The position numbers and the translations under genes were made by a program. A stretch of 5,370 nt of DNA from Candidatus Desantisiibacteriota bacterium (GTDB lineage: Bacteria; JACRDZ01), in assembly GCA_016209155.1 (NCBI GenBank), contig JACQWU010000229.1, forward strand, positions 1-5,370. The letters are read 5' to 3'. Of this stretch, positions 1 through 777 are shown in pieces; position 1 is the first letter of the stretch; every line of letters starts with the position of its first letter. A model generated the notes under the pieces. That model made no database searches and was not told the origin of the DNA. It saw only the letters and a list, made by a program, of their open reading frames with translations.

Positions 1-40
1 AAAATAAAAAAAGCATCTTAAAAACAGGATGCTCTTTTTA
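1..40 (-). terminator. Rho-independent terminator, bidirectional, stronger on the - strand
   Basis: The arms AGCATC (12-17) and GATGCT (28-33) form a 6-bp stem around a 10-nt loop. Read leftward, the stem can extend through a G-U wobble (34 with 11) and several A-U pairs, and it is followed by a run of seven U's and then AUUUU. Read rightward, position 11/34 is an A-C mismatch and the tail is CTTTTTA, so termination should be weaker but possible. The hairpin could end both a leftward transcript from 41-250 and a rightward gene lying left of the window. Confidence 0.7.
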
Positions 41-117
41 TAAAAGAACTTAAACTATAAAGTTTTGCTTTAATCTGTTTTTACTATTCACTACTTGATA
101 TATTTTCAAGGTGAAAG
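5..117 (-). ncRNA. Candidate small RNA of about 110 nt, unknown family
   Basis: This leftward transcription unit has a consensus promoter (124-151) and an intrinsic terminator (1-40), with no credible reading frame between them. The predicted start is near 117, and the end is in the U-tract near 5. The first bases fold into a hairpin: the 5' arm is UUCAC then CUUGA (complement of 115-106), the loop is 7 nt, and the 3' arm is UCAAG, a 2-nt bulge, then GUGAA (complement of 98-87). An A/U-rich middle follows, then the terminator hairpin. The longest open stretch noticed is a 13-codon GTG frame without a Shine-Dalgarno. It does not resemble 5S, 4.5S/SRP, 6S or tmRNA in length or motifs. The alternative is an attenuated 5' leader of a gene beyond the left edge. 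The structure is seen in the sequence; transcription is inferred. Confidence 0.42.
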
Positions 118-123
118 AAATAC

Positions 124-151
124 ATTATACTACCTTTTTTTTTAATGTCAA
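124..151 (-). promoter_or_regulatory. Strong sigma70-type promoter, leftward
   Basis: On the - strand the sequence reads TTGACA (complement of 146-151), a 16-nt spacer, then TATAAT (complement of 124-129). Both hexamers match consensus exactly. The bases behind the -35 (about 153-187) are A-tracts on this strand, which resemble an UP element. The predicted start is about 117. The spacer contains nine consecutive A's. Confidence 0.62.
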
Positions 152-669: not shown

Positions 670-698
670 TTGACAAATTACATATAATAGTGTACTAT
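670..698 (+). promoter_or_regulatory. mraZ (dcw operon) promoter
   Basis: TTGACA (670-675), a 17-nt spacer and TACTAT (693-698, 4/6 match) predict a start near 705 and a 5' leader of about 73 nt. A perfect TATAAT at 683-688 is only 7 nt from the TTGACA and lacks a good -35 of its own (660-665 reads ATGTTT), so it is a less likely -10. The putative MraZ repeats overlap the -10 and the start, as expected for autorepression. Confidence 0.58.
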
Positions 699-725
699 TG
701 TGTATTGAAATGTAAAAAAGTGTAG
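686..725 (+). promoter_or_regulatory. Putative MraZ operator: four 10-bp direct repeats
   Basis: TGTA occurs at 691, 701, 711 and 721, exactly one helical turn apart. It is preceded by G in three copies and A in one, so the unit is roughly NNNN(G/A)TGTAN. The fourth unit contains AAAGTGT. MraZ of E. coli is known to bind TGGGN direct repeats spaced by 5 nt, and Mollicute MraZ binds AAAGTG(T/G)-type repeats, both with a 10-bp period just upstream of mraZ. The match in period, copy number and position makes autoregulatory binding the best explanation. Binding itself is inferred. Confidence 0.68.
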
Positions 726-777
726 AATGTTATATTTTTATTATTTTTGTGGATTTTGATATATAAGGAATCAGTAT

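Follow-up and report, generated by a model that had tools for sequence, protein, structure and literature searches.

UpsM of Rhodobacter sphaeroides is a small RNA encoded upstream of mraZ; it is 206 nt long and lies within the 268-nt leader of mraZ (PMC5089854). UpsM is bound by Hfq and restricted to Rhodobacteraceae, and this one RNA is a terminated leader that probably also acts in trans (PMC5089854). The window analyzed here, a complete contig (C157) of 5,370 bp, contains a leftward unit that can be set beside UpsM by description: the predicted product is a short RNA ended by an intrinsic terminator, the unit is intergenic and lies before a dcw cluster, and constrained folding suggests a structure that could compete with the terminator. 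Unlike UpsM, which is read in the direction of mraZ, this RNA would be ~110 nt long, is encoded on the - strand, and points away from the + strand mraZ.

The predicted anatomy (own promoter, 5' hairpin, single-stranded middle, and terminator with U-tail) resembles that of intergenic trans-acting small RNAs. It also resembles that of attenuators and terminator-type riboswitches, as the RNA is leader-sized and is predicted to form a terminator and possibly a mutually exclusive fold; unlike those systems, it contains neither a known aptamer nor a leader peptide preceded by a ribosome-binding site. The features of the locus are as follows.

About 4 to 41, - strand: intrinsic terminator hairpin and T-tract (-14.2 kcal/mol, z -4.4)
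7 to 117, - strand: predicted noncoding transcript of ~110 nt, deduced from promoter and terminator
21 to 81, - strand: possible antiterminator-like fold, formed by pairing of AAAACAG and CUGUUUU around two small hairpins, that would exclude the terminator
87 to 115, - strand: 5'-end hairpin of 10 pairs with a 2-nt bulge (-6.9 kcal/mol, z -3.0)
124 to 151, - strand: sigma-70-type promoter, TTGACA-N16-TATAAT (12/12 match)
152 to 200, - strand: A/T-tract region upstream of the -35 box, a possible UP-like element by its sequence, with a presumed function
219 to 247, - strand: second promoter-like site by sequence match, TTGACA-N17-TATTAT (11/12)
Right of 777, + strand: mraZ, rsmH, ftsL, ftsI (PASTA domain) and the start of a Mur ligase gene, a dcw-type cell-division cluster

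Setting of the locus

Position 1 of the window is a physical contig end, and the leftward unit sits at this edge, upstream of the division cluster and directed away from mraZ. The source assembly is a draft of 352 contigs and is 79% complete; no overlap of the C157 end with other contigs of the genome was found. Judged by its place, the Mur ligase at the right end of the contig is probably murF. Positions 1-777 form the intergenic stretch before mraZ, with 24% G+C (another figure for the stretch is 78% A+T). The nearest comparison genomes are related at the level of the phylum only, and RsmH is 46-48% identical to its best named relatives, so comparison at the DNA level is nearly impossible.

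Four TGTA repeats, spaced at 10-nt intervals, overlap the mraZ promoter (TTGACA-N17-TACTAT; window 670-735); they read GTGTA at 690, 700, and 720 and ATGTA at 710. The two nearest relatives in the phylum have GTGTA repeats before mraZ in the same 10-nt register; by sequence, the repeats at the mraZ promoter look like an MraZ operator with a GTGTA box. Within the same intergenic stretch, positions 571-620 hold one copy of a REP-like, GTAG-tagged palindromic repeat that is dispersed in the genome, with two palindromes face to face. In the repeat, GTAGCGG precedes CTGGAT..ATCCAG, GCGAAT..ATTCGC, or TGGGAT..ATCCCA, and the copies differ by paired changes; it has 29 sites in the genome, compared to none for the reversed pattern, and six frames in the genome are of the Y1 transposase type.

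In the relatives G001 and G003, rnhA and RNase P RNA lie upstream of mraZ, both rightward, so the relatives suggest no shared leftward gene. In both genomes, rnhA comes first and the RNase P RNA gene next (L131 7980-8458 in G003; L130 7391-7911 in G001). In G003, no clear rightward gene lies closer upstream of mraZ than the RNase P RNA gene; other frames intervene in G001.

Promoter, terminator and predicted RNA

The first-pass annotation had described a perfect leftward promoter with A-tracts behind it, and the promoter does match consensus at all 12 positions (-35 box TTGACA at 151-146, -10 box TATAAT at 129-124, 16-nt spacer), with A/T-rich DNA upstream. Based on its sequence match, the site at 219-247 is a possible tandem promoter. 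A perfect promoter on either strand arose in 6 of 2000 dinucleotide shuffles of 1-777. Genome-wide, TTGACA-N16-TATAAT occurs at 16 sites, compared to 3 for the reversed pattern that served as a control, and the N17 form occurs at 28 sites, compared to 6; based on this excess, roughly four-fifths of perfect matches lie above background.

Transcription is predicted to start at ~117, about 7 nt past the -10 box, and to stop near 7. The terminator had been placed ~85 nt from the start; we located it at about 41-4, with ~80 nt between the start and its stem. The hairpin (stem GAGCATC/GATGCTT, with a loop) is followed by a T-tract, and its energy compares to -5.6 kcal/mol in shuffles; terminators this strong are expected 0.007 times per shuffle of 1-777. 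On the + strand, the same hairpin is a weaker terminator (-9.4 kcal/mol). Chance alone would not be expected to produce either element in 1-777. Based on the shuffles and the genome-wide enrichment, the leftward unit is very unlikely to have arisen by chance, yet ~1/5 of such promoter matches may be chance.

As the first-pass annotation had also stated, no credible reading frame lies between promoter and terminator: the longest frames have 19 codons (from TTG) and 13 codons (from GTG), both lacking a Shine-Dalgarno sequence. Attenuation through a leader peptide was rejected, as these two frames have neither a ribosome-binding site nor a run of codons. A hairpin at the 5' end, likewise noted before, was recovered at about 115-87, with the arms UUUCACCUUGA...UCAAGUAGUGAA. 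The whole predicted RNA folds at -23.0 kcal/mol (z -2.7), and the predicted full-length structure consists of the 5' hairpin, a mostly open A/U-rich middle of 45 nt, and the terminator.

The competing fold borrows its CUGUUUU strand from the terminator and could form while the last terminator arm is still to be transcribed; folding of nt 1-97 of the RNA gives -18.5 kcal/mol (z -3.3). In a test devised after this fold had been seen, the terminator and the 5' hairpin were held fixed and the linker alone was shuffled (n=1000). The energy of the competing fold was matched in 13 shuffles, its pairs into the terminator arm in 37, and both in 4. In a separate test, the 9-nt complementarity alone was reached in 67 of 1000 and is not significant. 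Given this post hoc design, the modeled fold is suggestive in being somewhat stronger than shuffles.

Searches for related RNAs and comparable units

We ran Rfam covariance models over 1-160, a check that the first-pass annotation had proposed. At permissive thresholds, this search returned chance matches, mostly to the terminator and all far below gathering scores, so that no aptamer or leader family already described was matched; ARAGORN found no tRNA or tmRNA. The statement that no familiar RNA class fits was thus borne out. No further copy of the RNA was found in its own genome. A covariance search of 21 genomes, using a model built from one sequence that recovers itself, identified no recognizable homologue in the 20 other genomes; the best outside matches (E ~0.03) were equally good in an unrelated genome and in the phylum, and the match in G001 is an ordinary terminator after an ORF. 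The proposed comparison with relatives is answered only in part by these results, which come from a single-sequence model and from genomes of which the nearest share only the phylum. Exact-pattern searches of viral contigs and BLAST searches of phages and plasmids gave no meaningful match; one plasmid match (E 0.004) was rejected, as it covers the AT-rich promoter and upstream DNA and lies outside the RNA.

Within the window, the + strand at 284-420 has a TTGATA-N16-TATAAT site, and the following segment, 348-420, faintly resembles the leftward RNA's 5' half. As evidence for a divergent copy, this similarity was too weak (in a one-strand test, 7 of 300 shuffles attained its score), and the segment itself folds no more stably than its shuffles (z -0.05).

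The first-pass annotation had argued that promoters this close to consensus usually drive stable RNAs. This argument did not hold for the 44 perfect N16 or N17 promoters of the genome: 40 of them precede a frame of at least 50 codons that starts within 250 nt of the -10 box, and the retrieved loci include no tRNA. The interpretation as a small-RNA gene accordingly loses its argument from promoter strength and keeps that of a compact leftward unit outside any known RNA class. Only two of the 44 promoters, this one and one on contig C279, have a terminator, in place of a reading frame, within the next ~120 nt, and none of the genome's other perfect promoters has a terminator between promoter and gene.

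The C279 unit is also compact and leftward (90-223), with its promoter at 196-223 and its terminator ~71 nt past the -10 box. This terminator is very strong, and its stem shares DNA with the stop codon of a convergent gene. The product of this gene resembles Fe(2+)-trafficking proteins, a likeness that consists of a 27-residue Pfam fragment match (E 2e-5) below the family cut-off. Because the C279 unit converges on a gene end, compact terminated units that do not lead an adjacent co-oriented gene appear to exist in this genome. The RNAs of the two units are not demonstrably akin, as their sequence likeness is no better than that of shuffles (96/500).

Readings of the leftward unit

Our tentative first choice is a gene for a small noncoding RNA that stands on its own and is read leftward, in the direction away from mraZ. 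RNA polymerase would start near 117 at the consensus promoter and stop near 7, giving an RNA with a protective 5' hairpin, a middle that is A/U-rich and mostly open, and, at its 3' end, the terminator hairpin and U-tail. The open middle would most likely base-pair with target mRNAs; transcription, stability, target, and function are as we infer them. Such pairing, if any, would probably be independent of Hfq, since no Hfq gene was found: the Pfam model has no match in this genome, and the same model finds Hfq in control genomes such as E. coli and B. subtilis. With ~1/5 of the genome missing, this absence is an indication at most.

The unit may instead form the attenuated 5' leader of a gene that is also read leftward and lies past the contig end, a reading that is nearly as good, if more doubtful, and in which the nascent RNA would pick the antiterminator or the terminator, with the short RNA as the prematurely ended product. 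Up to position 1, both readings predict identical sequence anatomy. The leader reading is kept alive by the competing antiterminator-like fold, which suits it better than it suits a small RNA, and it agrees with the placement of most perfect promoters of the genome before nearby reading frames; that a homologue was found neither in the genome nor in relatives also counts against a small RNA. However, the evidence from the fold is post hoc, with complementarity that shuffles reach on their own. The small RNA is slightly preferred because its full-length anatomy is usual, no other perfect promoter has a terminator before its gene, and neither an aptamer or leader known to Rfam nor a leader peptide was recognized.

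It is distinctly unlikely that the hairpin is mainly the terminator of a gene converging from the left, which would also end a short leftward transcript with no function of its own. The hairpin can double as a + strand terminator, such a gene could end in the open + strand frame at 3-53, and C279 offers a precedent; however, the - strand terminator is clearly better in energy and T-tract, and an open frame of 16 codons is weak evidence. Least probable, and very improbable overall, is a chance match with an unused promoter. Although the reversed-pattern control leads us to expect chance for about one in five perfect N16 sites, and the stretch is A+T-rich, the intergenic place and the strong terminator jointly argue against it, as do the shuffle frequencies of both elements.

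It is unlikely that the unit is a new lineage-specific RNA regulator beside the division cluster, whether as a small RNA that works independently of Hfq or as a terminator-type riboswitch, so far undescribed, that binds a ligand of its own. The unit probably encodes a small RNA of an ordinary sort or a gene leader whose transcription ends early. The general picture would change only with a new riboswitch class or with control of the neighboring division genes; if expressed, the unit would extend the list of candidate regulatory RNAs by one, from a phylum that has been sampled poorly.
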